Of a stretch of 24,692 nt of DNA, positions 1,251-23,401 are shown one piece after another. The DNA is from a virus. Location of the stretch: IMG/VR virus record IMGVR_UViG_3300032223_000817, positions 1 to 24,692 of that record; one strand, 5' to 3'. A model generated the notes under the pieces. That model had not been told where the DNA came from. It did not search any database and saw nothing but the letters and a program-made list of their open reading frames with translations. Both the position numbers and the translations under genes were made by a program. Position 1 is the stretch's first letter; each line of letters opens with the position of its first letter.

Positions 1251-3035
1251 ATGGCAACATTTGCTCGTCCCGGAGTCTATATCCAAGAAGTGGCTCTTCC
1301 ACAGACTGTGACACCTGCTGATACCAGCAATGCTGTCGGTGCGTTTGCTGGAGCTCTTCCACAAGGTCCTACTGCTGCACCAGTACTAGTAAGTACATGG
1401 ACAGATTTTTTTAAGACCTTTGGAGGCTTGAATGACTCATACCCAACAACTTGGGCTGCCTATAACTTTTTTGCTAATGGTGGCCGCAATCTTTATGTAA
1501 AGCGTGTAGTAGGCTCAGGAGCTACTGCAGGTTCTTTAACTATCACTGATGGTTCTGGAACTACAACTACTACTACAGCTGTTGTTACAGCAGCTTCAGC
1601 AGCTAGTGGAACTATTACTTACACAGCTACAAATACATTTTCTGTTGGACAGACTGTAAATATTACAGGTCTTTCAACAACAGCATTTAACTTAACTGGT
1701 GCAACTATTGCTACACGTTCAGGTTCACAGTTTACTGTTACAAATGCCGCAACAGGTACTGCAGTAACTGGAGCTTCTGCAGCAGCTACTGTTACAGTTA
1801 CAGTTGCTTCAAACCCAGTGTTTACTTTACAGGCAATCAACGCAGGAGCTTGGTCTACAAGCTATGCTGTTAAGATTGTTGCCGCTGGAAATGCTGCTCG
1901 TTTTGGTCTTGAAGTTTACCAAACAACTATTGTTAATGGAAACTCTGCATCTACTCTTGTAGATTCATATACAGATCTAAGCATGGCAACAACAGATCGT
2001 AACTACTTCCTATCAGTCATTAACTCTAACCCAGCAGCTATTATTAAAGTTTCTTCTTCAGGAATTGATAACTCTAAGTACCCTGCCGCAACCGTTACTG
2101 CTACAGCATTAGCTGGTGGAACAGATGGTGGAACACCAGGTCGTTCAGACTATTCAGCTGCTTGGACAACTTACGATTCTGTAAATAATCCTTTAGTTAT
2201 TTATGCGCCAGATGCATCTTATGCTGGAACAAGTCAACTAACAGCTCAGATTCACGGAGACGCTGTTTCATATGCAGCTAGCCGTACAGATTGCTTTACA
2301 GTATTTGATACTCCTTCGGGGCTATCAGTATCTGCAGCTCAAACTCAAGTAACTGCTACATACGCTGTATTTGCTGGAGATACTACAGGAAATATTGCGG
2401 CAGCTTACTACCCATGGTATAACATTCCAGATACAACTAAGGGAATTGGCGTAACACGTTTACAAGCCCCTGGTGCTGGTGTTGTTGGTCAGTACATTGC
2501 TACTGATGCAACTCGTGGTCCAGCTAAGACTCCAGCTGGTCTAAACAATGTTATGGCTCTTGCTGTTTCAACTGAGCACCTATTTACTAACGCTGAACTT
2601 GATGCAATCAACATATCTGTAGATCCAATCAATGCTATCCGTCAAGTACCTGGTGCAGGAATTGTTATTATGGGTGGTCGCACACTTGATAACACCCCTA
2701 ACAATCGCTACATCAACATCCGTCGTTCATTGATTTACATTGAAAAGTCTATGAATGACCTATCAGCATTTGCAGTGTTTGAGAACAATGATTCACGTCT
2801 TTGGTCTCAAATCCGTACCACACTGAACAGCTTCTTGCTTTCTTACTGGCAATCAGGCGGTCTACGTGGAACAAATCCATCTCAAGCATACTATGTAAGA
2901 TGCGATGCAACTACAACCTCTTTTGCAGACATGCAAGCAGGTCGAGTAAACATCGAAGTAGGAGTTGCTCTTGAGTACCCAGCAGAGTTCGTTGTCATTA
3001 AGCTTGGACAACTAACCGGAAACGCAACAGCGTAA
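1251..3035 (+). CDS. Contractile tail sheath protein with an inserted beta module
   Basis: The 594-residue protein begins MATFARPGVYIQEV, the classic PGVY-x-x-E start of phage, pyocin and injection-system sheaths. The C-terminal third holds the conserved sheath core: INAIRQVPGAGIVIMGGRT near 459-477, then NIRRSLIYIEKSMNDL, a helix with FENND, and an end with VALEYPAEFVVIKL. Sheath subunits polymerise around the tube and contract to drive it into the cell. Residues about 95-190 are an insertion: a Thr/Ala-rich linker (six consecutive Thr near 103-108) and then a small beta domain. That domain closely resembles one inserted in the baseplate wedge protein at 11463. In known sheaths such insertions sit on the outer surface. 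The start has a good ribosome binding site (AAGGAG). The tube gene follows 15 bases downstream. Confidence 0.97.
   Translation: MATFARPGVYIQEVALPQTVTPADTSNAVGAFAGALPQGPTAAPVLVSTWTDFFKTFGGLNDSYPTTWAAYNFFANGGRNLYVKRVVGSGATAGSLTITDGSGTTTTTTAVVTAASAASGTITYTATNTFSVGQTVNITGLSTTAFNLTGATIATRSGSQFTVTNAATGTAVTGASAAATVTVTVASNPVFTLQAINAGAWSTSYAVKIVAAGNAARFGLEVYQTTIVNGNSASTLVDSYTDLSMATTDRNYFLSVINSNPAAIIKVSSSGIDNSKYPAATVTATALAGGTDGGTPGRSDYSAAWTTYDSVNNPLVIYAPDASYAGTSQLTAQIHGDAVSYAASRTDCFTVFDTPSGLSVSAAQTQVTATYAVFAGDTTGNIAAAYYPWYNIPDTTKGIGVTRLQAPGAGVVGQYIATDATRGPAKTPAGLNNVMALAVSTEHLFTNAELDAINISVDPINAIRQVPGAGIVIMGGRTLDNTPNNRYINIRRSLIYIEKSMNDLSAFAVFENNDSRLWSQIRTTLNSFLLSYWQSGGLRGTNPSQAYYVRCDATTTSFADMQAGRVNIEVGVALEYPAEFVVIKLGQLTGNATA
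1611..1815 (+). repeat. Beta module copy A (inside the sheath gene)
   Basis: This encodes sheath residues about 120-185. V132-G150 reads VGQTVNITGLSTTAFNLTG and is followed by a second block (QFTVTNAATGTAV). It aligns with copy B in the gp6-like gene at 12585-12795, with 10 of 19 identical residues in that core by hand count. It looks like a mobile Ig-like or other small all-beta surface domain. The family is not identified here. Confidence 0.6.
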
Positions 3036-3050
3036 AGGAGATAAGAAAAC

Positions 3051-3671
3051 ATGTCAGCAACTGAAAACCTACTAAGCACCTTAATGACGGACCCAGTCCG
3101 TAATTTTAAGTTCCTAGTCACATTTGATACAACTTCAGATTGGAGTAAGGGAGCTAAGCCACTAAAGATGGGTTTTGTTTCTCTCTCCGGTCTCAGTGTA
3201 ACAACCGAACCTATTGCCTATCGTGAAGGTGGATACAACACTAACGTTCACCAGATCCCTGGTCAATCAGCGTTCACACCAATCACTCTCTCTAAGGGAG
3301 TAATGTTGGGACAAGATTCAAACATCAATTGGATGAAGCGCCTATTCTCAGTTCTAACCCCAAGCCTAACAACTGGTGTTGGACAAGGATTCCGTGCAGA
3401 CCTTACTATCCAAGTACTAAGCCATCCAAACCCACAAGCAGATACTGGTGCTGGAGCTCAGGCCCCAAACCCTGGAGATCAACACACTTCACTACGCTTT
3501 AAGGTTTACAACGCTTGGATCTCATCACTATCGTACAGCAACCTAGATGCAGGAGCTAACACCCTTATGGTGGAAGAGATGTCTCTAGTTCATGAAGGTT
3601 GGGATGTACAATATGCTACAGGATACACACTATCAGGATCAGCAGACGGAGCTACATTCCTAGGACGTTAA
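3051..3671 (+). CDS. Tail tube protein (T4 gp19 / contractile-tube family)
   Basis: The 206-residue protein starts at ATG 3051 after the ribosome binding site AAGGAG. It matches the tube family of contractile phages and injection systems in layout. An N-terminal DPVRNFKFLVTFD strand (about 14-26) is followed by GFVSLSGLSVTTEPIAYREGG (about 43-63), where the 'V-S-G-L ... E-x-x-x-Y-R-E-G-G' pattern is typical. Then come a loop with ITLSKGVMLGQDSNINWMKR and a C-terminal beta part ending near EEMSLVHEGWDV. The protein stacks as hexameric rings that form the inner tube through which DNA passes, inside the sheath encoded just upstream. It is slightly longer than many family members; the extra length lies around residues 120-150, a Pro/Gly/Ala-rich loop that may face outward. 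Confidence 0.93.
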   Translation: MSATENLLSTLMTDPVRNFKFLVTFDTTSDWSKGAKPLKMGFVSLSGLSVTTEPIAYREGGYNTNVHQIPGQSAFTPITLSKGVMLGQDSNINWMKRLFSVLTPSLTTGVGQGFRADLTIQVLSHPNPQADTGAGAQAPNPGDQHTSLRFKVYNAWISSLSYSNLDAGANTLMVEEMSLVHEGWDVQYATGYTLSGSADGATFLGR

Positions 3672-3691: not shown

Positions 3692-4513
3692 ATGACAACT
3701 GACACAACTATAACTGCTTCAAACAACCCAGCTTTAGCAAATGAACTAGCAGCTAAAGCTATGAAACCTTCTGATCAGGTGGTGGCTAGTAGCGCTCCAA
3801 AGACTGCTACAAACCCACCACCTGCTACAGATGTTGAACTATTAGGTGGATTATTAGATCCAATTTTTGGAATGATTACCACCGCAGAAGTAAGAGAACT
3901 AACAGGACTTGATGAAGAACTCATCTCTAAGGTTACTGATCCTGGTAAAGCTTTACTAACAATTTTAGAAAGAGCTACCGTAAAGATTGGTGATCAACCT
4001 GCAGACAAAGAACTTCTAGATGCTTTGTATGCCGGAGATCGTGAGCTTTTACTACTAGCAATTAGAAATGCAACTTTTGGTTCCGATATTAAATTGGGAC
4101 CTGGAGAATGCCCTAGCTGTGGCGTAGAGCAAGTCTTTGAAATTGATTTAATTAAGGATGTACCTCTCAAGAAACTTGATGGAGACCATACTTTTACAGT
4201 TAACTGTAAGGTTGGAGAAGTAGTGGTAGCGCTTCCTACAGGAAGTACTCAAAAAGCTATTGTAACTTCGACCAACAAAACCTCGGCAGAATTGGATACA
4301 ATTCTTCTGAAAAACTGCATAGAGTCAATCAACGGTGCGCCAGTACTTGGCTTAGACGATGTTAGAAAACTTAGTCTTAAAGACCGTAGAGACATTTTGC
4401 AAGAGATCACAAACCGCAACCCAGGCCCACAACTCAGTGAAATAAAAATACCATGTCAGTCTTGCGGCACGGAGGTACCGCTTCCGCTAACTTTAGCGGA
4501 GTTGTTTCGCTAA
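3692..4513 (+). CDS. Tail assembly chaperone, first frame (two CxxCG zinc knuckles)
   Basis: The chosen start is ATG 3692, with AAAGGTGA about 6-8 bases upstream. A GTG at 3683 is in frame but lies inside that ribosome binding site. The product is 273 aa. Residues 1-60 are Ala/Thr-rich and disordered. From about 60 the protein is folded, with helices around VRELTGLDEELISKV and LLLLAIRNATFG. C140-x2-C143-G and C255-x2-C258-G could together bind zinc. The position between tube and tape measure is that of tail assembly chaperones, which bind the tape measure while the tube is built. The 'CPSCG ... idL' pattern also recalls T4-type baseplate hub assembly proteins (gp26/gp51 class), so that name is an alternative. 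It ends in a short frame overlap with the second chaperone frame. Confidence 0.65.
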   Translation: MTTDTTITASNNPALANELAAKAMKPSDQVVASSAPKTATNPPPATDVELLGGLLDPIFGMITTAEVRELTGLDEELISKVTDPGKALLTILERATVKIGDQPADKELLDALYAGDRELLLLAIRNATFGSDIKLGPGECPSCGVEQVFEIDLIKDVPLKKLDGDHTFTVNCKVGEVVVALPTGSTQKAIVTSTNKTSAELDTILLKNCIESINGAPVLGLDDVRKLSLKDRRDILQEITNRNPGPQLSEIKIPCQSCGTEVPLPLTLAELFR

Positions 4514-4514
4514 C
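4502..4514 (+). other. Candidate +1 programmed ribosomal frameshift site
   Basis: The end of the first chaperone frame reads TTG TTT CGC TAA C. A tRNA-Phe on TTT (4505-4507) could slip forward one base onto TTC (4506-4508), a better match for its GAA anticodon. It would then continue GCT AAC GAG into the downstream frame, which is open from 4497 to TGA 4656-4658. Slow decoding of CGC or the nearby stop could promote the slip. The stop TAG at 4494-4496 limits a +1 shift to 4497-4513. Chaperone frameshifts are well known in tailed phages, mostly -1 and rarely +1 or -2. Confidence 0.5.
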
Positions 4515-4658
4515 GAGATTGATTATGAACTGCTTATGGATATGCAGGACTTATTAGTTCAAAGTTATCCAGGGTGGACATTAAATGAAGTGCGAAACCT
4601 CAGTATGAGGGAACGCATAAACTGGTTAAATAGAGCTACGGCTAGGATAAGGCGGTGA
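4512..4658 (+). CDS. Tail assembly chaperone, second frame (frameshift extension)
   Basis: This frame lies +1 to the preceding gene and gives about 48 residues beginning NEIDYELLMDMQ and ending with ARIRR before TGA 4656-4658. It contains TLNEVRNLSMRERINWLNR, a helical 'L-x-E-[VI]-x-x-L-x-x-R-E-R-x-x-W-L' motif much like second-frame tails of tail assembly chaperones, which recruit tape measure and tube. No ATG, GTG or TTG is available before ATG 4536. That ATG has no ribosome binding site and would cut off the first part of the helix, so fusion by frameshift is favoured. Independent translation of a 40-residue protein from ATG 4536 is the alternative. The tape measure gene starts 5 bases later. 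Confidence 0.6.
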   Translation, partial: NEIDYELLMDMQDLLVQSYPGWTLNEVRNLSMRERINWLNRATARIRR

Positions 4659-4663
4659 TGTAA

Positions 4664-7036
4664 ATGGCGGGTCAAAATCTAATACCACCATCTGACGCTG
4701 AGTCAACCTCTTTTTCTTCTATGTCTGACCAAGTAGACTTTGATGGGCTTCCTAAAAACTTTATTAAATACTTTAAAGAAGCTGCCAAACTTGTAGATGA
4801 TATGGTTGACAAATGGTCTAAAGCCATTAAAGATACCGAAGCAGCCACAGGAAAAGCTGCTGCTGGAAGACCTGGCGCTGGACGCCTAGGCCTTGGTGAA
4901 TTTACTCGTGCTGAAAAAATTGGTTTAGGCATTGGTGTAGCAACTGCAGCTGGGGCTACCTATATGTCTATGGCGCCTAATACTATGGCCGCTGTTACAC
5001 AGCGTATGGGTGCAGATACTTATGCCGGTCTTAGCGGCATGTCTTCTCGTCAAGCAATTCTTCAAGCTAACCGTCAAGTAGGCGGGGGTGCTACAAGTGC
5101 TATGGGTCCAACCATGGCTGCAATGAATTTAATGTACCAGGGTGGGTATACAGCTAGTTCTTTAAGCTCTAAGAACATCATGGGACAGCTTGGCGGATTA
5201 AGCGCCATGTCTGGTATGAGTAACGAACAGGCTGCCGGAAGTATGGCATCTATGAACGGCATGAGTTTTTTACGTGCCGGTATTCAAATTCGTGATAGGC
5301 AGGGTAACTTAAAGCCGCCTAATCAAATTATTAATGATGTATACAGCTTTTTGTATCGTGGACAAACGATTACAAAACAACAAGCAGCACTTGTATTAAA
5401 CCCTGGAAGTAAGGGTTACGCAACCATTCAACAGATTACTGGTGGCGATCCTCAGCTAATGCAAATGATCCAATCGGGTATTCTTGCACGTGCATCAAAT
5501 GGAAAACCACTTACAGCATCTCAAATGAGTGACCCAAATAAAGTTTTAAACGCTATGGGTGTAGATCAAAGCTCTCCTATTCGTGCTAACTTCCGCTATA
5601 ACTCAAGTGAAAATAAAAAGCTTGCTTCTACTGAACAAGGATTAGTAGGCGGATACGACGCCTCTCTTCGTACAGCTGCGTCTCTTAATGACGCCTACAG
5701 CAAGATGGCAGATATTCTTGGTCCGGTTAATGATGGGTTGATGACCCTTAAAGGAATTTTACAAACTTTTCCTAATGCTGGTGGCATGGGTGGAACAGTT
5801 TCTGGTTTAGCTGGTAGTGCTGTAGGTATTGGTAAGTCTATTTTAGAATACAAAATGCTTAGTAAGTTAATGGGTGGAACTGGTGCACTAGGTTTAAAGG
5901 GACTAGCAGGTGGTGCTCTTGAAGCAGGCGGTTTAGCTGGCGGATTAAAAATGCTGGGCGGATCAATGCTTAAGGGCGGATTAATTGCTGGCGGATCAAT
6001 GCTTGCTGGAAACCTTATTAAGGGACATTCATCTAAAGGTAGCTTCCGTTCACGTGCAGGTAACGCTGCAAAGTGGGCAGGTATTATGGCTGCTATTCCA
6101 GGACTAGGCGAAACTATTCTTCCAGAACTTATTGCTGGTGGAATTGGCTATGCAACTGGTGGGCCAAGTGATCATGGTAACTTAGGCGTTGGTGGGCCTT
6201 CTACATCTGGTATGGCGTTCTCTTACCCTGTTCCAAAAGCAACACCTATTACTTCTCCGTTTGGTCCAAGAGATAATTCTGCACACCCAGGAATTTCTGC
6301 AAACCACCACGGTATTGATTTTGGTACTCCTGTAGGAACTGCTCTAACTGCTGTTACAAACGGTACTGTTAGCAAGATCGGTAACGATATGAAGGGTTAC
6401 GGTAACTGGGTTGAAGTAAAGCACGATGACGGTACCGCATCTCGTTATGGACACCTATCTCAAATTGGTGTTTCTCGAGGACAAAAAGTTGGTCCTGGAC
6501 AAGTTGTTGGTAGGTCTGGCGGTAAAGCTGGAGCTGCTGGTGCAGGTAACTCTACCGGTCCACACCTTCACTTTGAAATTCTTGATCAAAAGGGTGTTAA
6601 GGTAAACCCAGCACCTTACTTAACCGGTGCTCCAGCAGGACCTATAAGTTCTGGAGGTTTTACAGCATCTGCTGTTGCAGGACCTGCAGGACCTAGAATA
6701 ATTTCTGGACAGAGTATGTCTGCAGCAAAATCAGCTACCTCTGGAATAAAAAGGGGGTTGCAATCATCTAAAAGTATTTCTACACTTACAAGCCCAAGCT
6801 TAAGTTCTACCTTAACTTCTTCATATAATGAAGATCTTGGGGGACCTACTGACGATATGAATATTGGAACATCGGTTGGTTCTCGTGGAACAGGTGGAAA
6901 GACTGCTAATATTTATGTAACTATGAAAGTAAATATTGCCCACGGAAGTGTTCAAGAAGCTCAACGTTTAGTTAAAGAGTTTGGAAAACAACTCACTTCT
7001 GGTAAGGTTTTAGACGCATTAGGAAAGGCACTTTGA
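4664..7036 (+). CDS. Tape measure protein with M23 peptidase domain
   Basis: The 790-residue protein starts at ATG 4664 behind AAGGCGGTGA. Residues 1-65 are charged and helical. About 80-400 is Met/Gly/Ala/Ser-rich helical sequence typical of tape measures. About 400-450 is a Gly-rich hydrophobic stretch with GG-x3-4 periodicity (such as GGLAGGLKMLGG) that could insert in a membrane. Residues about 525-650 form a LytM/M23 metallopeptidase: PITSPFG; H548-x-G-x-D552; YGH597; and PHLHFE with H634 and H636. All the zinc ligands and the catalytic histidine pattern are present, so the enzyme should be active. It would cut peptidoglycan cross-links during injection. The C-terminal 140 residues are Ser/Gly-rich and end in a helix likely to contact the chaperone or baseplate. 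At 790 aa it predicts a tail of medium length. Confidence 0.93.
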   Translation: MAGQNLIPPSDAESTSFSSMSDQVDFDGLPKNFIKYFKEAAKLVDDMVDKWSKAIKDTEAATGKAAAGRPGAGRLGLGEFTRAEKIGLGIGVATAAGATYMSMAPNTMAAVTQRMGADTYAGLSGMSSRQAILQANRQVGGGATSAMGPTMAAMNLMYQGGYTASSLSSKNIMGQLGGLSAMSGMSNEQAAGSMASMNGMSFLRAGIQIRDRQGNLKPPNQIINDVYSFLYRGQTITKQQAALVLNPGSKGYATIQQITGGDPQLMQMIQSGILARASNGKPLTASQMSDPNKVLNAMGVDQSSPIRANFRYNSSENKKLASTEQGLVGGYDASLRTAASLNDAYSKMADILGPVNDGLMTLKGILQTFPNAGGMGGTVSGLAGSAVGIGKSILEYKMLSKLMGGTGALGLKGLAGGALEAGGLAGGLKMLGGSMLKGGLIAGGSMLAGNLIKGHSSKGSFRSRAGNAAKWAGIMAAIPGLGETILPELIAGGIGYATGGPSDHGNLGVGGPSTSGMAFSYPVPKATPITSPFGPRDNSAHPGISANHHGIDFGTPVGTALTAVTNGTVSKIGNDMKGYGNWVEVKHDDGTASRYGHLSQIGVSRGQKVGPGQVVGRSGGKAGAAGAGNSTGPHLHFEILDQKGVKVNPAPYLTGAPAGPISSGGFTASAVAGPAGPRIISGQSMSAAKSATSGIKRGLQSSKSISTLTSPSLSSTLTSSYNEDLGGPTDDMNIGTSVGSRGTGGKTANIYVTMKVNIAHGSVQEAQRLVKEFGKQLTSGKVLDALGKAL
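5957..6004 (+). repeat. 15-bp direct repeat within the tape measure gene
   Basis: GGCGGATCAATGCTT occurs at 5957-5971 and again at 5990-6004, a period of 33 bases (11 codons). Each copy encodes GGSML in the Gly-rich hydrophobic segment. This suggests a recent in-frame tandem duplication of an 11-residue unit, a common way for tape measures to change length. Confidence 0.7.
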
Positions 7037-16747: not shown

Positions 16748-17662
16748 ATGCTAAGACCAATTATTAACCCAAAGTTATCTTTACGAGCCAGGTCACTTTT
16801 CTATTATTTTGCAGAAAAGGGTCGGGTTATTTCTGCTGACGAATTAAGAAAGACGCAAGAATTTCCTGAAGGTAGGGATGCGCTTCAGTCTGCAATCAAT
16901 GAACTTAAAGATCTTAAGTACGTTAAGTCTGTCCGTGTACAGAATAACGGCCAATGGATTGCTCGCCTAAAATTTACAGAAGAGGCTAAAAAGCTGCTTT
17001 CTACCGACAACGGCTTTTCAGGGCACCTATACATAGACAACTATACAGCTACTAGTACTAGTGATATATCTACTAGAGCTAATATAGTTAAAGATACTAA
17101 CGTATCTTTAACTATAGGGGCTGCGCCCCAAGAAGGAGAAGAGATGAGTTGGAATCTTGATGGGGATGAAGAAGCTCCTAAAGCAAAGCGTGGCGAAGAA
17201 GAACCTATTGCTGGTGCTGTTGGCAAACTTGAAGATCGCCAGGCACGTCTTAACGCAAAGTACAAGAAACCAGTTAAGGCTCAGCGTGACAGCAAGGATA
17301 GAATCAATACTCCAGAGGAGCTTTGGTCTACCACAGATTTGATTGCAGAGTTCTACGATCTAGTTGAGAAGGCTGCACCAAACACTTCTAGCCAAGTCAA
17401 TAACAAATATCTTGCGACTTGGATCAACAAGCAGGTTGGCGAAGGAACTCAACGCCATGAACTTCTAAAGGCTATGCGTATGTTTTTTGCAGATCCACGT
17501 AACCTAAATGATCTTGGTATTGGTAAACCACTATGGCAAAGATTCTTTTCCTACTACCCAACAATTCAGGGAGTAGTTAAGAAGCCAGAGCAGCCAACAT
17601 ACTCAACAGATAAATTTAAAGCACATCAAGAAAAAATGATGCGACTACTAGAGGGAGAATAA
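16748..17662 (+). CDS. Winged-helix DNA-binding protein, probable replication initiator
   Basis: The 304-residue protein starts at ATG 16748 after a very strong Shine-Dalgarno region (AGAGGGAGGG at about 16733-16742). Residues 10-85 look like a winged helix: LSLRARSLFYYFAEKG, then VISADELRK, a recognition helix RDALQSAINELKDLKYV and a wing WIARLKFTEEA, as in phage replication and DnaD-like N-domains. Residues 110-185 are a charged, probably disordered linker. The C-terminal 110 residues are helical (LIAEFYDLVEKA, NNKYLATWINKQV, RHELLKAMRMFFAD), possibly the part that contacts helicase or loader. The DnaC-type loader overlaps its end by one base. By synteny with phage O/P-type or DnaD/DnaC-type pairs, it probably marks the origin and recruits the loader. 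Confidence 0.6.
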   Translation: MLRPIINPKLSLRARSLFYYFAEKGRVISADELRKTQEFPEGRDALQSAINELKDLKYVKSVRVQNNGQWIARLKFTEEAKKLLSTDNGFSGHLYIDNYTATSTSDISTRANIVKDTNVSLTIGAAPQEGEEMSWNLDGDEEAPKAKRGEEEPIAGAVGKLEDRQARLNAKYKKPVKAQRDSKDRINTPEELWSTTDLIAEFYDLVEKAAPNTSSQVNNKYLATWINKQVGEGTQRHELLKAMRMFFADPRNLNDLGIGKPLWQRFFSYYPTIQGVVKKPEQPTYSTDKFKAHQEKMMRLLEGE

Positions 17663-18339
17663 TGTACGATTTGTCTAAAGAAGCCCCAAGCATTCGGAAA
17701 CAAATCGTTCAAGCCGGTCTCCCAATGAAAACTATTGGTAAGGAATTTTCTGATTTAGATTCCACACCCGCTCTTGAAGCCGTCAAGAAATGGGTTGCTC
17801 GAGTAGTAAATGGCGAGATCATCCAAAAGGCCGGAACACCCTCTTGTGGGCTAGGAATTATGCTGGTGGGTAATCCAGGTCACGGAAAGACTACTATGGC
17901 TTCTACGGCCCTGCAGAGCCTTATTAGGGGTATCTCAGGGGACGCCTTAGGCACCCCAGGAATGCTCCCAAACCGTATAGGCGGGTTTATGGACTATCCA
18001 AAGCTTTTGCGGTTACAGAAGTCTCAGTTCTCGGAAGAAGACGATGCCACTCAGACTCTACTTGACGGCATATACGGGGACTCGGATAGAATGAATAACG
18101 TAAGGGTTTTTGTTCTAGATGATATTGGTAAGGAATATAGAACGGCATCAGGGTGGGCGGAAAATACTTTTGATGCGTTACTACGTTCAAGATTTAATGC
18201 GGGGCTTCCAACTATTGTAACTACAAACGTTCCTCTTGATAATTGGGGAAGTGTTTATGGTTCACCTATGGGAAGCTTTGCTATGGAAGCATTTATACCA
18301 ATCGAGGTAGAGGCACCACAGGGGGACAGACGAGGATGA
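17662..18339 (+). CDS. DnaC-type AAA+ helicase loader
   Basis: The 225-residue ATPase starts at ATG 17662 (TAATG junction). Walker A is G70-N-P-G-H-G-K76-T77. Walker B is VFVLDDIG with D153 and D154. Sensor 1 is near 190 (TIVTTNVPLDNW). This order and spacing are those of DnaC/DnaI-type loaders, which open the DnaB ring and place it on single-stranded DNA. The N-terminal 60 residues, with SIRKQIVQAGLPMKT, would be the helicase-binding part. The substrate is presumably the phage DnaB-type helicase encoded three genes downstream. An Arg finger could not be assigned with certainty. The gene ends close to the SWIM-finger gene. Confidence 0.85.
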   Translation: MYDLSKEAPSIRKQIVQAGLPMKTIGKEFSDLDSTPALEAVKKWVARVVNGEIIQKAGTPSCGLGIMLVGNPGHGKTTMASTALQSLIRGISGDALGTPGMLPNRIGGFMDYPKLLRLQKSQFSEEDDATQTLLDGIYGDSDRMNNVRVFVLDDIGKEYRTASGWAENTFDALLRSRFNAGLPTIVTTNVPLDNWGSVYGSPMGSFAMEAFIPIEVEAPQGDRRG

Positions 18340-18350
18340 AGGAAACTACT

Positions 18351-18635
18351 ATGAGTTCATGGCAAGTTACACAATTGTTTTTATCTGACTCTGGACCGCA
18401 TGAGGTTTGGATCAATCTTGATAATAAAAAACTTCGCTGTAATTGTGAAGGTTTTAACACACGCAGTATGTGTAAGCATACCCGTTACGTTTCAGATAAG
18501 ATGAAAAATAATTCTGGTGTGTATCCAGTAGAAATTTCTACTAGGGCTCCTGAGAATGATGCTGCTCTTGCAAGTTTAGATCCCGTTATGTTTAGGGATT
18601 TCTTATTGAAGTATGGCAAGATCGAAGTTCTTTAA
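18351..18635 (+). CDS. Small SWIM-type zinc-finger protein
   Basis: The start is taken at ATG 18351 because AAGGA lies 7 bases upstream. ATG 18336 in the overlap with the loader stop is an in-frame alternative adding five residues. The product is 94 aa. C30-x-C32-x8-C41-x-H43 is a SWIM finger (C-x-C-x(n)-C-x-H), within KLRCNCEGFNTRSMCKHTRYV. SWIM fingers bind DNA or proteins and occur in transposases, SNF2 helicases and recombination cofactors. Here it stands alone between the loader and the helicase. The remaining residues form a beta hairpin before the finger and two helices after it. A role in replication or recombination is inferred from the neighbours; the partner is unknown. Confidence 0.75.
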   Translation: MSSWQVTQLFLSDSGPHEVWINLDNKKLRCNCEGFNTRSMCKHTRYVSDKMKNNSGVYPVEISTRAPENDAALASLDPVMFRDFLLKYGKIEVL

Positions 18636-18637
18636 TA

Positions 18638-19054
18638 ATGCGTGGGGGCGATATATCAAATGAAACTCCTATGCGGGTTGTGGTTACTTTGGACTGCATC
18701 CTTGATCGCAGGCCCACCTTTAAGAAGGTACTTGGTGTGGCGGTCAGTGGTGAAGAGGTTACGTACAATAGACAGTCGCTCTCTTTATTTTGGCGATTTG
18801 CAGAAACCTACTCTTACAAGTTAGAATTGGTAGGGTACGGTTTTTCTCAAAATGAAATGGATGAAGTTTTAGAAGATCTAGACAATCTTGGAACTAATCC
18901 GTTTAACTACGCAAAAGCTTATAGAGTTCCTGCAGACCTTGTTGCAGAGCTAGCATACAGACCAGAGTTAAAGCATGTGATTGATATACCCGAACGTGGG
19001 TTACGTTACGGGCATTGGTATTTAGATATGGGGGCAGCTGGTGGCAGCAGATAA
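18638..19054 (+). CDS. HAD-like protein with a degenerate motif I
   Basis: The 138-residue protein starts at ATG 18638; ATG 18671 is a possible later start and neither has a strong ribosome binding site. The segment RVVVTLDCIL (about 13-22) looks like HAD motif I (h-h-h-D-x-D-G-x-L) but has Thr17 in place of the nucleophilic Asp and Cys in place of Gly. ELVGYG (about 58-63) could be motif II. VIDIPERGLRYG (about 113-124) recalls a C-terminal 'D-x-P-x-R-x-x-x-[WY]-G' motif of small phage HAD-like proteins. Phosphatase activity is therefore unlikely, and the family call is tentative. The gene overlaps the helicase gene by 14 bases and probably serves the replisome. Confidence 0.4.
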   Translation: MRGGDISNETPMRVVVTLDCILDRRPTFKKVLGVAVSGEEVTYNRQSLSLFWRFAETYSYKLELVGYGFSQNEMDEVLEDLDNLGTNPFNYAKAYRVPADLVAELAYRPELKHVIDIPERGLRYGHWYLDMGAAGGSR

Positions 19055-20285
19055 TGAAGAGAGATTAATCTCCAGAGTCGTAAGGACTCGGGAAATTATC
19101 CCTGCCTTAGAAAAGGGTGTTGATGATAGCTGGTTCTTTGTAGATGAGAATCGTTCTGTCTGGAAGTTTATTCGTACGCATTGGACTCGCTACCAAGAAA
19201 TTCCTAGCGCTGTAACTGTTAAGGATAATTTTCCTACCTATAGATTACTTGCTGTAGATGATTCTTTAGATTACTTAGTGGATCAATTAGTTGAATACCG
19301 ACGACGTCAAAAAGCTATAGAAGTAGTACAGACCGCTGCAGAACTTATTGCTTCTGGTAACCACGATGGCGCTATTGCAGAGATGAGTTCTGGGGTTGCA
19401 ACTATCTATGATGAGGGTGCTGCTCAGTCTAGCGACGTAGATCTTACCAAAGATCCGGACAAACGTTTTCAAGAGTATTTAGATATTAAAACTCGTGACG
19501 GTGCCTTGCTTGGTTACCGCACAGGGTTTCGTACTATTGATGAAGCTACCGCTGGTTTGCAAAACGGTCAATTAATTACAATTATTGCTCCTCCTAAAAC
19601 CGGTAAGTCTGTGCTTGCTATGCAGATCGCAGTCAACGTACATGAAGATGGTCATGTCCCTATGTTCCAATCTTTTGAGATGAGCAATATTGAGCAACAA
19701 CATCGTCACGATGCTATGCGTGCAAAGATTGCACACTCCCGCTTAGTGCGAGGAAATTTAAACTTAGAAGAAGAACGTAGATACAAAGCAACTTTAGAGC
19801 GTATGGAAACTATGCAGAAGTTTTATCTTACGGATAGTACTTCTGCCATGACAGTTACAGGATTGGCAGCAAAAATTGAAAAGATTAAGCCTGACATTGT
19901 TTTTGTTGATGGTGTCTATCTTATGGTTGATGAAGCTAGCGGTGAATCAAATACTCCACAGGCTTTGACAAGCATTACTCGTAACCTAAAACGACTAGCA
20001 CAAAAAGCTAACATTCCAATTGTGGTGTCCACTCAGGTTCTTCTTTGGAAGATGAAGAAGCGCCAGGTATCCGCAGATGCGATTGGGTATTCATCCTCGT
20101 TCTTCCAAGACTCAGATGTGATTCTTGGTTTGCAACGTCAAGATGAAGAAGATGATTCATCTCGTGAACTTCGTATTGTTGCAAGCCGTAACTCTGGCCC
20201 AGCAACAAGCGATCTTCTATGGGACTGGGAAGAAGGGAAGTTTGAAGAGTATGGAACCTTTGGCACTCCAATCAAACCCTTTTAA
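19041..20285 (+). CDS. DnaB-type replicative helicase
   Basis: The 414-residue protein starts at GTG 19041, inside the end of the previous gene, with a G-rich ribosome binding site at 19030-19034. Residues 1-105 correspond to the DnaB N-terminal helical domain. From about 160 the RecA-like domain follows. LGYRTGFRTIDEATAGLQNG is the usual entry ('G-x-x-T-G-[FY]-x-x-[IL]-D'). A183-P-P-K-T-G-K189-S190 is Walker A. PDIVFVDGVYLM with D290 is Walker B. VVSTQV is sensor-like, and SSSFFQDSDVILGL is the typical DnaB stretch near the end. It unwinds the phage fork and is presumably loaded by the DnaC-type protein upstream. The WhiB gene starts within its last 35 bases. Confidence 0.9.
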   Translation: MAADNEERLISRVVRTREIIPALEKGVDDSWFFVDENRSVWKFIRTHWTRYQEIPSAVTVKDNFPTYRLLAVDDSLDYLVDQLVEYRRRQKAIEVVQTAAELIASGNHDGAIAEMSSGVATIYDEGAAQSSDVDLTKDPDKRFQEYLDIKTRDGALLGYRTGFRTIDEATAGLQNGQLITIIAPPKTGKSVLAMQIAVNVHEDGHVPMFQSFEMSNIEQQHRHDAMRAKIAHSRLVRGNLNLEEERRYKATLERMETMQKFYLTDSTSAMTVTGLAAKIEKIKPDIVFVDGVYLMVDEASGESNTPQALTSITRNLKRLAQKANIPIVVSTQVLLWKMKKRQVSADAIGYSSSFFQDSDVILGLQRQDEEDDSSRELRIVASRNSGPATSDLLWDWEEGKFEEYGTFGTPIKPF

Positions 20286-20502
20286 CGGAACTCAGCTATG
20301 CGCTGGAGAAAACCCAGATATCTTTTTTCCGGAGAAGTATACAAATCACAAGGCTGTTCAAATAGCTAAAGAAATTTGTGGAGATTGCTGGATTAAAGAA
20401 GAATGTTACAAGTACGCACTACAGATCCCAAACCTAGAGGGTATCTGGGCAGGAACAACACCGCTTGAAAGGAAAAGATTATTAAAAACATTAGCGATCT
20501 AA
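20251..20502 (+). CDS. WhiB-family iron-sulfur transcription regulator
   Basis: The start is ATG 20251, giving 83 aa and overlapping the helicase by 35 bases; a longer frame upstream is only the helicase read out of frame. The four cluster ligands are C17, C43, C46 and C52 (C-x25-C-x2-C-x5-C). LCAGENPDIFFP after the first Cys and EGIWAGTTPLERKRLL (about 63-78) match the WhiB 'G-[VI]-W-[GA]-G' turn and basic tail. WhiB proteins bind a 4Fe-4S cluster and usually sigma-A region 4, changing host promoter use. Mycobacteriophage WhiB (TM4 WhiB) is known to repress host whiB2 and block superinfection. This is the clearest sign of an actinobacterial host. The overlap with the helicase suggests early, coupled expression. 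Confidence 0.92.
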   Translation: MEPLALQSNPFNGTQLCAGENPDIFFPEKYTNHKAVQIAKEICGDCWIKEECYKYALQIPNLEGIWAGTTPLERKRLLKTLAI

Positions 20503-20522
20503 AACCGGATTATACAAATGCA

Positions 20523-20741
20523 ATGGATGTTCGTGGAGAACCTACTCACGTTTGTCCGTGTGGTTCAATGCTTTGGAATGTTAAGGCTATGTTTCAAGAC
20601 TATGAAATTTCAATGTACTTCTTAGACATGGAGTGTGCAGAATGTGGTACTAAAGCTACCGCACCAACTTTGCCAGACATGCCGGAAGATTACGTAATGA
20701 TGGACGACCGACCAAAAGCAGAGTACGAAGAAGAGGACTAA
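20523..20741 (+). CDS. Small zinc-ribbon-like protein (72 aa)
   Basis: ATG 20523 lies 20 bases after the WhiB gene, without an obvious ribosome binding site. C11-x-C13-G and C38-x2-C41-G lie on either side of a beta-like stretch, which fits a single zinc ribbon. The last 22 residues are very acidic (DDRPKAEYEEED), which could mimic nucleic acid or mediate protein contacts. No family was recognised. It lies between WhiB and primase and two bases ahead of the primase start, so it probably belongs to replication or transcription control. Confidence 0.65.
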   Translation: MDVRGEPTHVCPCGSMLWNVKAMFQDYEISMYFLDMECAECGTKATAPTLPDMPEDYVMMDDRPKAEYEEED

Positions 20742-20742
20742 C

Positions 20743-21714
20743 ATGTATCGTGAGGGCGACGTAGAGTCTGTACTTCTAAGACTTGGCATTGAAGTAGATC
20801 AACGCAATGATGAGTTGCTTGGTCTATGTCCTATGCACTTAGAACGTACTGGTCGTGCAGACTCTCGCCCGTCATGGTCAATGAACGTAGAGACCGGTGT
20901 CCATCACTGCTTCTCATGTGGATACCGTGGCACCCTGCTTACTCTTGTTGCAGAGATCAATGAGTTTGAGACTCAATGGGGTCGCCTTGATTTTGAGGCA
21001 GCCAAGGACTGGTTGCGTCAAAACATTGAGGTTAACTTTGAGTTGATTGCTAAACAACTAGAAGAAGCTAAGAACTCTTATATACCTGTTCAGCCAGTGC
21101 TTGAAATGAGTGAGGCACGTCTGGCGATTTTCGACGGAGTACCACCAGATTGGGCCCTATCTGCTAGGGGTTTAACTGCAGATGCTTGTGTTAAGCATTC
21201 GGTTAAATGGGATGCTAAGCAACAGGGTTGGATTACACCAATTCGTAACCCAGAAAACAATAGGCTTATGGGTTGGCAAGAAAAGGGTCAGGTCAATCGT
21301 TATTTTCGAAACCGTCCCACCGGAGTACAGAAGTCTAAAACTTTATTTGGTTTAGATGTCTGGAGCAGTGGCACTATGATCATTGTTGAGTCTCCGCTAG
21401 ACGTAGTAAAACTATCGTCATTGGGAATTGAAGGCGGGGTCTCAACTTTCGGCGCATCTATTAGTCAGGATCAAGTAGATCTAATGCGTCGTGCAGATAA
21501 GTTAATCATTGCATTTGATAACCCTAGTATTGATCCCGCTGGTGAGAAGGCTTCTCGTGACATGCTTGCACGTACAAAAAAAGAGGGGCTTGAATGTTTC
21601 TTCTTTAAGTATGGTGGGGACTACAAAGACATTGGCGATATGCCTGAAGAGCAGGTTATACTAGGTATAGAGAAAGCAAAGCATTCTGTTTTTGGGGAGA
21701 TGGCATTTTTATGA
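20743..21714 (+). CDS. DNA primase (CHC2 zinc finger plus TOPRIM)
   Basis: The 323-residue protein starts at ATG 20743 with AGAGGA upstream. The CHC2-type zinc site is C29-P-M-H32 and C56-F-S-C59, in the typical setting LLGLCPMHLE and HHCFSCGYRG. Then comes a linker, and from about 205 a TOPRIM fold: MIIVESPLDVVKL with E216, then LIIAFDNPSIDPAGEKA with D259 and D264. The usual D-x-D-x-x-G is stretched to D-N-x3-D-P-A-G. The protein makes RNA primers for the fork unwound by the DnaB-type helicase encoded upstream. No helicase domain is fused, unlike T7 gp4. At 323 aa it is close to a minimal primase core and lacks the DnaG C-terminal helicase-binding domain, so contact with the helicase must differ. 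Confidence 0.88.
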   Translation: MYREGDVESVLLRLGIEVDQRNDELLGLCPMHLERTGRADSRPSWSMNVETGVHHCFSCGYRGTLLTLVAEINEFETQWGRLDFEAAKDWLRQNIEVNFELIAKQLEEAKNSYIPVQPVLEMSEARLAIFDGVPPDWALSARGLTADACVKHSVKWDAKQQGWITPIRNPENNRLMGWQEKGQVNRYFRNRPTGVQKSKTLFGLDVWSSGTMIIVESPLDVVKLSSLGIEGGVSTFGASISQDQVDLMRRADKLIIAFDNPSIDPAGEKASRDMLARTKKEGLECFFFKYGGDYKDIGDMPEEQVILGIEKAKHSVFGEMAFL

Positions 21715-21848
21715 TTAAAGCATTTAAACAGTGGCGTTGCAATAAGGCAGGGCACACCTACGGCGAGGGTGTTAGCTGCCCCTTTACTGGAAATACCTAT
21801 CACTACTGCAGCAAGTGTGGTAACAGAAAGACGGTGAGTGGTAAGTGA
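21711..21848 (+). CDS. Tiny zinc-ribbon-like protein (45 aa)
   Basis: ATG 21711 overlaps the primase stop (ATGA), and TGA 21846-21848 overlaps the next gene's GTG start (GTGA at 21845-21848). Both junctions are typical of translational coupling and argue that this is a gene. C10, H15, C23, C33-x2-C36-G give a compact zinc ribbon, with HYCSKCG as the second knuckle. The composition is basic (many K and R), compatible with nucleic-acid binding. No named family is claimed. Confidence 0.7.
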   Translation: MIKAFKQWRCNKAGHTYGEGVSCPFTGNTYHYCSKCGNRKTVSGK

Positions 21849-23401
21849 GTTTTACTGGAACACTTTTACCCTACCAGGTAGAAGCTGTAGAGGCAATGGT
21901 GGACCGCAAGAAGATGCTTGTGGCCTATGACCTTGGCCTGGGTAAAACAGTTTTAACTATTGCTGCTATTGAACAATTGAAAGACGAAGGAAAGATCACA
22001 GAGCCTGGTATAGTTATCTGCCTATCCTCATTGAAGTATCAGTGGGCAGATCAGATTAGGAAATTTACAGATGGATCTTCAACACCTTTGGTCATTGATG
22101 GTACGCCAAAACAACGAGCAGAGCAATACGCTCAAGCCTTCGACTGGGGTCATTCACTCGTGGACTATGTTATTCTCAATTACGAGCAAGCTGTTAACGA
22201 CTGGGAGTATATACGACAGCTCCCTACGGGATTCATTGTCTGTGACGAAGCAACCGCAATCAAAAGTTTTAGATCCAAAAGATCAAAGCATGTCAAAAAA
22301 TTAACTAGCCCAGTTAAGTTTGCGCTCACTGGTACCCCTATTGAGAATGGTAAGCCGGAAGAGCTTTACAGCATTATGCAGTTTGTGGACTCTAAGGTCT
22401 TAGGACGTTTTGATTTATTTGACCAAACCTTTATCGTACGCAATCGCTTTGGCGGTGTAGAGCGCTATCGTAATCTAACAACTCTCAGCAAAACACTTGC
22501 AGGAACAACAGTACGCAAGAGACAGACAGATGCAGACGTAGCACCCTACCTGCCCGATACAATTTTTGCGGAGCCTATTTTGGTAGAGTTTGATCGTGCT
22601 GGATCTGTGCTCTATAAGGATATTGCTAAGCAGCTACTAAAGGATCTAGATGATGCTGTGGAATCTTTTGGCTCATCATTTGATCTGTTCAGCCATTACG
22701 CTGGAGAGCACTCCAACGATGTGATGGACGCACTCAAGGGCAAGGTGATGTCAAAGCTGACAGCACTACGTATGCTCTGCGACCACCATGAGTTGATACG
22801 TGTCTCATCATCTACCTCCGGTTACGCCGGTGAGCTGGAAGAGGCGGGCAAGCTGGATAAGTTAAAACAAACTCCAAAGCTATCCGCACTCAAAGAGTAT
22901 GTTGATAATTTCCTGGAGCAAGATGAAAGAAACAAAGTAGTTATTTTTACAAGCTACGTCCACATGGTCGACTTGATTCGTAATGAGCTTAAGTACAAGT
23001 CTTCCCCGTATACAGGAGCAATGAATGCTAAAGAAAAAGAAGAATCAAAAGTCAAATTCCAAACGGATCCCGAAGTTCGCATCCTTGTCAGCTCTGACGC
23101 TGGGGGCTATGGTGTTGATCTACCTCAAGCTAATCTTCTTATTAACTATGATCTCCCGTGGAACGCAGGACTCGCACTTCAACGTAATGGACGAATCAGA
23201 AGAGCATCCAGCACATGGCCCTCAATCGTAATTCAAGATTTTATTATGGATGGCTCTATTGAGGAGCGTCAACACGCTATGTTAGTTCAGAAAATGGCTG
23301 TAGCAAATGCAATTATTGATGGAGAAGGTATCAATACAGAGGGCGGTGTAACCTTAACTGCGGGAACACTTAGGGCTTTCTTAGAAGCAGTTTCGGTTTA
23401 A
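21845..23401 (+). CDS. SNF2/DEAD-type superfamily 2 helicase
   Basis: The 518-residue protein starts at GTG 21845. Motifs in order: LPYQVEAVEAM (Q-like, about 8-18); DLGLGKT with K34 (Walker A, motif I); SSLKYQWADQI (Ia, about 60); CDEATAIKS with D134-E135 (motif II, DEAx form); ALTGTPIENG (motif III, about 159); VVIFTSYVHMVDL (IV); ILVSSDAGGYGVDLPQANLLINYDLPWN (V); and QRNGRIRRASS (VI, Q446, R450, R453). This is the SNF2-like translocase arrangement, not a replicative helicase. Phage members are thought to act in recombination, fork remodelling or removal of DNA-bound proteins. No nuclease or SWIM domain is fused; a stand-alone SWIM protein is encoded at 18351. Confidence 0.93.
   Translation: MSFTGTLLPYQVEAVEAMVDRKKMLVAYDLGLGKTVLTIAAIEQLKDEGKITEPGIVICLSSLKYQWADQIRKFTDGSSTPLVIDGTPKQRAEQYAQAFDWGHSLVDYVILNYEQAVNDWEYIRQLPTGFIVCDEATAIKSFRSKRSKHVKKLTSPVKFALTGTPIENGKPEELYSIMQFVDSKVLGRFDLFDQTFIVRNRFGGVERYRNLTTLSKTLAGTTVRKRQTDADVAPYLPDTIFAEPILVEFDRAGSVLYKDIAKQLLKDLDDAVESFGSSFDLFSHYAGEHSNDVMDALKGKVMSKLTALRMLCDHHELIRVSSSTSGYAGELEEAGKLDKLKQTPKLSALKEYVDNFLEQDERNKVVIFTSYVHMVDLIRNELKYKSSPYTGAMNAKEKEESKVKFQTDPEVRILVSSDAGGYGVDLPQANLLINYDLPWNAGLALQRNGRIRRASSTWPSIVIQDFIMDGSIEERQHAMLVQKMAVANAIIDGEGINTEGGVTLTAGTLRAFLEAVSV

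Follow-up and report, generated by a model that had tools for sequence, protein, structure and literature searches.

Probable programmed +1 frameshifting on UUU_Y in a T4 gp26-type tail assembly chaperone gene with an upstream hairpin

The window, a stretch of 24,692 nucleotides (nt) that comprises positions 1 to 24,692 of the viral IMG/VR record IMGVR_UViG_3300032223_000817, carries a gene, here called ORF A, whose 3′ end is overlapped by a second reading frame. This arrangement raises the question of whether, and by which signal, ribosomes pass from the first frame into the second. An earlier note on this DNA had proposed a tail assembly chaperone in which a UUU codon slips to UUC next to a slow codon and a stop. 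Our comparison of related junctions strongly supports a programmed frameshift as such and makes it very probable that a +1 shift on UUU_Y would produce two forms of a gp26-type chaperone from one gene, with upstream stimulation being probable. The tail genes and the junction features described below lie on the plus strand.

A chaperone gene with an overlapping second frame

ORF A (3692 to 4513) begins with the ATG at 3692 and encodes 273 amino acids up to the TAA at 4511 to 4513. Its 3′ end, at 4499 to 4513, reads GAG TTG TTT CGC TAA and thus contains the TTG TTT CGC TAA that had been pointed out before. The +1 frame is open from the TAG at 4494 to 4496, which sets the 5′ limit of the shift, to the TGA at 4656 to 4658, and these two codons bound exactly the interval of 4494 to 4658 given in the earlier note. 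Just four zero-frame codons fall within the overlap, namely GAG, TTG, TTT, and CGC, and TTT is the only one that offers its tRNA a cognate partner after a move of one base (UUU to UUC). The putative slip site, UUU_C, occupies positions 4505 to 4508, where tRNA-Phe would move from UUU at 4505 to 4507 to UUC at 4506 to 4508. Translated from this TTC, the +1 extension (4506 to 4658; 50 codons and the stop) reads FANEIDYELLMDMQDLLVQSYPGWTLNEVRNLSMRERINWLNRATARIRR; it would form the C-terminal part of a long form, TAC-NC, with a fused product of 321 amino acids, while ORF A by itself would be the short form, TAC-N. The earliest ATG of the +1 frame is located at 4536, and inspection by eye revealed no Shine-Dalgarno sequence at a usable distance from it, in agreement with the claim that no plausible start precedes this ATG and that it lacks a ribosome binding site.

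A search with ORF A revealed a match to the PF12322 family (T4_baseplate; T4 gp26/gp51) with an E value of 2.6 × 10−11 and 44.1 bits against a gathering cutoff of 24.5, and all 24 of the 24 fused relatives matched the same family. The baseplate hub family phrog_150 was matched as well (E value of 2.5 × 10−11), and a profile search of PDB sequences gave no match. The top PDB match of an AlphaFold model of ORF A alone (pLDDT of 85) was the HK97 tail assembly chaperone 2ob9 (Foldseek probability of 0.97, E value of 0.15). Comparison of the two structures by VIA yielded a Z score of 6.8 and an rmsd of 3.7 over 94 residues, the next match having a Z score of 4.0, and the top viral structure matches of the model were T4-like baseplate hub assembly proteins. 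Because its Z score is below 8, the fold match is moderate by itself.

The gene context is that of a tail module. The tail sheath protein (1251 to 3035; phrog_23, E value of 7.8 × 10−45) and a tail tube protein of the T4 gp19 family (3051 to 3671; PF06841, E value of 2.5 × 10−23) precede ORF A, and a probable tape measure protein with an M23 peptidase domain (4664 to 7036) follows it. The last assignment is based on the position after the chaperone and on PF01551 (E value of 4.3 × 10−26), and the matches of this protein to several tape measure PHROGs arise via the peptidase domain. The order of tube, chaperone, and tape measure is the same in BRock, LuckySocke, SP-15, LIS04, Mel-JY01, and immuto. 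Taken together, the fold match with a chaperone as the best solved structure, the position between tube and tape measure, and the PF12322 family make a convincing case, in line with the earlier proposal, that ORF A is predicted correctly as a tail assembly chaperone of the T4 gp26/gp51 type.

The BRock counterpart of the tape measure protein, gp134, is annotated as an endolysin. Directly past the tail module, the window carries replication genes for a DnaC-like loader, a DnaB-like helicase, a primase, and a DNA helicase (17662 to 23401). A WhiB-like transcription factor (20125 to 20502; phrog_472, E value of 7.6 × 10−17) points to an actinobacterial host.

Conservation of the slip site

To place the junction in context, the junctions of PF12322 relatives were compared among the matches listed in scans of viral contigs. 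At least 45 IMG/VR relatives displayed the same overlap, phase, and protein wherever the contig reached the junction (3 of the 45 end before or inside the second frame), and further loci were added by profile scans and BRock-based scans. A scan of genome contigs provided two relatives, on contigs labelled Saccharothrix and Streptomyces. The Streptomyces phages BRock, LuckySocke, GiJojo, and pSt2308, with an ORF A identity of 33 to 37%, share the overlap, and in these BRock-like phages CTG TTT CGC GAA CTC TAA, or a near variant of it, leads into the same +1 extension. As judged by comparison, the overlap is neither a chance occurrence nor a sequencing error; overlap, phase, and protein recur in the relatives.

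Within the window clade and the Streptomyces BRock-like clade, UUU_Y was present in every one of the 79 distinct junctions among the matches listed, with C following UUU in 76 of them and U in 3. UUU itself was found in 68 of 68 window-clade sequences and did not change anywhere on the tree. The codon after UUU, which in the window places CGC in the A site, differed among the 79 junctions (CGC, CGT, CGA, CGG, CAG, CTC, UAA, and UGA), and the zero-frame stop immediately followed UUU in only 3 of them. Because this stop is found 0, 1, 2, or 3 codons past UUU, the combination of a slow codon and a stop is not the conserved element; a slow Arg codon and stop adjacency were both rejected as the key signal, neither being conserved. 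Of the trigger suggested in the earlier note, the UUU therefore stood and the CGC codon and the adjacent stop did not, and the alignment of TTTCGC across relatives that it had proposed gave the same picture, with the overlap and UUU_Y being kept and CGC varying.

The distant set comprised 138 distinct junctions among the matches listed, and a +1 extension was counted when it reached at least 30 codons. All 133 junctions with such an extension had UUU_Y in the overlap, which, together with the near junctions, speaks for the proposed slip from UUU to UUC. Phages of Bacillus, Streptococcus, Microcystis, and Flavobacterium are represented among them, and the sites include UUU_CAC in SP-15, UUU_CGU in GXN1, UUU_CUA in LR756508, UUU_UUU_UGG in Mel-JY01, and UUU_CUU in immuto. 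The +1 frame is open in LIS04, too, and UUU_UUU codons lie within its overlap. The junction and the conservation of UUU_Y were thereby shown by comparison of sequences.

Five of the 138 distant junctions, those of Atu_ph07, PA5oct, LR756511, L172, and L173, had no +1 extension of at least 30 codons. In the first three, an extension in the −1 frame follows poly-U, and the direction of the shift, as read from the open frames, is one that has switched between +1 and −1 inside the PF12322 chaperone family. Since PA5oct has UUU_UUC yet a −1-frame extension, UUU_Y by itself would be insufficient for a +1 shift. These three loci (Agrobacterium Atu_ph07, uncultured LR756511, and Pseudomonas PA5oct) carry U_UUU_UUC or C_UUU_UUC on Phe-Phe codons. 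In L172 and L173, UUU is lost (TTC) and the second open reading frame (ORF) lies in another frame, with an ATG just after the stop (TAGAAATG and TAGAAATCATG), and a separate start has apparently replaced the frameshift. These two very distant loci were the only relatives among the matches listed with a separate start for the second frame, the arrangement that the earlier note had named as speaking against frameshifting.

Hairpin and Shine-Dalgarno-like sequence 5′ of the slip site

The explanation of the site by a slow codon and a stop had left out a constrained 5′ element composed of a hairpin and a Shine-Dalgarno-like sequence. Upstream of UUU, synonymous positions are strikingly constant in the window clade, with GAG in 68 of 68, TGC in 68 of 68, and GCG in 60 of 68 sequences, while GCG makes up about 11% of the Ala codons elsewhere in the gene. 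We attribute this constancy to two features, an 8-bp hairpin and the sequence GGAGGU.

The predicted RNA hairpin, UUCCGCUA-ACUU-UAGCGGAG, extends from 4482 to 4501 and is separated from UUU by 3 nt, i.e., by the E-site codon. Its minimum free energy is −10.7 kcal/mol compared with −1.4 kcal/mol for synonymous shuffles (p of about 0.001), the same test gave p values of ≤0.013 in 22 of 22 window-clade sequences tested, and the slip-adjacent segment ranks 1 to 8 of about 250 in-frame segments along ORF A. Of the 25 sequences of the GCG class, 23 to 25 retain each of the six inner pairs, and in the GCA subclade the hairpin is re-formed in another register (CUGCCA/UGGCAG) in 7 of 7 sequences. The BRock clade has a different hairpin at the site, CCCAC/GUGGG, whose changes are mostly pair compatible, and LR756508 carries an unrelated one, CGCAUCC-CGUU-GGAUGCG, likewise 3 nt from UUU. 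The hairpin was absent or not significant in Streptococcus phage GXN1, Listeria phage LIS04, and many Mel-JY01- and immuto-type phages, and the 45 nt 3′ of the slip site folded no better than shuffles, i.e., revealed no downstream stimulatory structure. Selection on the hairpin is well supported by this comparison, and the hairpin probably stimulates the +1 slip.

The GGAGGU sequence at 4471 to 4476, a putative stimulator, is 28 nt away from the slip codon on its 5′ side. Looping out of the hairpin would bring it to within 8 nt of the P-site codon, so that it may act jointly with the hairpin. GGAGGT is found in every window-clade sequence listed, and the codon before GAG changes its amino acid yet always ends in G (ACG, GCG, TCG, CAG, and CTG). 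Pairing to the anti-Shine-Dalgarno sequence exceeded that of codon shuffles in 8 representatives at a combined p of 1 × 10−5, a value overstated by relatedness, since Fisher combination treats related sequences as independent. Many other lineages have similarly strong sequences at an upstream distance of roughly 31 to 36 nt. The shuffle tests favored both hairpin and GGAGGU in the window and in the LR756508-, Mel-JY01-, and immuto-type groups; in the BRock group they favored the hairpin alone, GGAGGU not being significant. The significance of GGAGGU per lineage is modest, several lineages lack one or both features, and its role in the shift is moderately supported. Where prfB has its Shine-Dalgarno sequence, about 3 nt ahead of the slip codon, the window has the base of the hairpin. 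A prfB-style sequence right 5′ of UUU was considered as well and rejected, as GGAG at 4498 to 4501 is not kept and appears as GGAA, GGAT, or GGAC in relatives.

The frameshift could be real and the two features nevertheless by-products of protein or codon constraint, or have a different task, for example in RNA processing or in controlling translation of the gene downstream. Consistent with an incidental origin, the features are weak or missing in several lineages that have retained UUU_Y, and Pro-x-Gly stretches favor CC...GG pairing in some groups. In the window clade, however, the synonymous shuffles rule out protein constraint, a subclade keeps the pairing through different bases, and an unrelated sequence (locus L152) likewise has its hairpin one codon 5′ of the slip. 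We consider this alternative unlikely, albeit one to be reckoned with, and retain stimulation by the upstream element as the preferred reading.

Expression of the second frame and its relation to known systems

In the 68-sequence tree of the window clade, +1 codons 1 to 9, which lie 5′ of any ATG, accumulated 44, 41, and 93 changes at codon positions 1, 2, and 3, respectively, and the whole extension accumulated 268, 184, and 471. The conserved part of the extension begins at the slip-site Phe and contains the motif W...L(S/T).RER..W (29 relatives). The third-position bias from the slip site onward bears out the idea of an overlapping frame that extends the chaperone, and the comparison shows the +1 frame to be coding from the first codons past the slip, before any ATG. 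The extension resembled P2 GpE (PF06528) weakly (E value of 0.0072 and 16.2 bits, below the gathering cutoff of 23), as did 6 of the 24 fused relatives, and a comparison of the window-type with the Mel-JY01/immuto-type tail by hhalign, with a probability of 1.9%, did not establish homology. In the records of L046, L047, L048, L153, L049, and L052, the second frame is either unannotated or given as a hypothetical protein of its own whose start is arbitrary.

The second frame might instead be a separate small co-chaperone gene, translated from the ATG at 4536 or by reinitiation after the TAA at 4511. Many window-clade sequences do have an ATG at +1 codon 10 or 12, and in L172 and L173 an ATG immediately follows the stop; these two, however, are the loci without UUU, and their second ORF is in another frame. 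Moreover, the start is not conserved, 15 of the 79 junctions having no ATG, GTG, or TTG within the first 24 +1 codons and 82 of the 133 distant +1 junctions having none after the slip, and coding constraint begins at the slip site and not at an ATG, all of which renders a separate gene highly improbable. A shift of −2 would lead into the same phase as +1, is used by phage Mu (PMC5009743), and would be permitted by the U7 tracts of Mel-JY01-type phages. In the window it is hardly credible because it would force tRNA-Phe to re-pair with UGU, and the first residue that is conserved beyond the junction agrees with +1 slippage on UUU_C, the direction originally proposed. Transcriptional rather than ribosomal slippage, for which T7 runs (TTT_TTT_TGG) in some relatives could be quoted, deserves next to no credence, as TTT (GTTGTTTCGC) is all that is found in the window and its clade, a run too short for polymerase slippage, and the conserved hairpin one codon 5′ of the slip would need another explanation.

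For the +1 shift on UUU_Y, we infer that the slip takes place in vivo and with an efficiency at which most ribosomes would stop at the TAA at 4511 and release the short form. In a fraction of ribosomes, peptidyl-tRNA-Phe on UUU at 4505 in the P site would slip by +1 and re-pair with UUC, and these ribosomes would continue to 4658 and add a helical tail of 50 residues. The 8-bp hairpin would refold on leaving the ribosome, abut the E-site codon, and either impede backward movement or pull the message; GGAGGU, brought near by the hairpin, may add to the stimulation, this being the least certain step. If lambda gpG/gpGT is a guide, coating of the tape measure would fall to the short form and recruitment of tube subunits to the added tail.

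Frameshifting of chaperones is known, and the variant with UUU_Y and an upstream hairpin is new. In literature of mostly open-access coverage, we found neither a report of +1 shifting on UUU_Y in chaperones of the gp26 type nor one of a natural +1 cassette with an upstream hairpin. The findings would make chaperone frameshifting a feature of the T4 gp26 family as well, in which T4-like phages reportedly do without it, and they define a slip signal by comparison over more than 200 distinct junctions. If true, the hairpin would be the natural counterpart of the +1-stimulating upstream hairpins that have been demonstrated to date in engineered messages. For annotation, UUU_Y should be looked for at the end of PF12322 genes where the second frame is missing or is called a separate hypothetical gene, and the PF12322 chaperones offer a phylogenetic system for testing the switching between +1 and −1. 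A broader proposal, which we put forward tentatively and would not yet favor, is that of an ancient natural +1 recoding cassette, consisting of an internal Shine-Dalgarno sequence, a distance-closing hairpin behind the ribosome, one codon, and UUU_Y, that spans phages of Actinomycetota, Bacteroidota, Cyanobacteria, and Bacillota, with some lineages flipping to −1 on the same Phe codons or using a separate start.

Tail assembly chaperones of the lambda gpG/gpGT type were reportedly described by Xu, Hendrix and Duda in 2004, and Vladimirov et al. reportedly identified gp26 and gp51 in 2022 as the chaperones of T4-like phages, which, to judge from the title of that work, rely on a mechanism other than frameshifting. 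T4 gp26/gp51 share the Pfam family and the predicted fold with ORF A and differ in reportedly operating without frameshifting, whereas the window family would use +1. Chaperone frameshifting in the −1, −2, and +1 directions is described in PMC5009743. As in lambda, the gene of the window lies between tube and tape measure and would give rise to a rare C-terminally extended form by 3′-end frameshifting (PMC5009743); lambda, however, shifts by −1, and the window family, of the T4 gp26 type with zinc-ribbon-like CxxC pairs, would shift by +1 on UUU_Y. The archaeal virus HSTV-2 also has a chaperone +1 frameshift, albeit in an archaeal host (PMC5009743). For the myoviruses of Vandenendeviridae and Andersonviridae, a conserved poly-U slip site where the short chaperone form ends was likewise proposed recently from sequence comparison, but there the shift is −1 on GTTTTT and the available portion of PMC12846349 reports no upstream hairpin, in contrast to the probable +1 shift with a hairpin in the window.

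The slip itself resembles that of influenza PA-X and of bacterial UUU_Ynn sites, where pairing in the P site moves from UUU to UUC and the A-site codon is often CGN (PMC3498833 and PMC5009743). In bacteria, UUU_Ynn is described as readily slipping by +1 even if no stop adjoins it (PMC5009743), and mass spectrometry proved the +1 slip of PA-X expression to lie within UCC_UUU_CGU, which has the UUU_CGN core of the window (PMC3498833). PA-X differs in gene and host and has UCC in the E site, where the window family has Leu codons, and the accessible part of PMC3498833 names no upstream hairpin. A likeness to the 5′ element is found in Escherichia coli prfB (RF2) and in an engineered CUUUGA hairpin construct, both with a +1 P-site slip and a duplex behind the E site (PMC6321510). 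With 70S ribosomes, a hairpin right behind the E-site codon stimulated the +1 shift on CUUUGA, an effect that mimics the internal Shine-Dalgarno helix of prfB and is tied to hairpin stability (PMC6321510). In that assay, the effect required the absence of RF2, whereas the A-site codon of the window family is usually CGN. In prfB, the Shine-Dalgarno sequence adjoins the slip codon and a stop occupies the A site; in the window, by contrast, a natural hairpin takes that place, with GGAGGU at a greater 5′ distance, and the A site usually holds a sense codon. The anatomy of the window is nevertheless what the upstream-hairpin mechanism of PMC6321510 would need.
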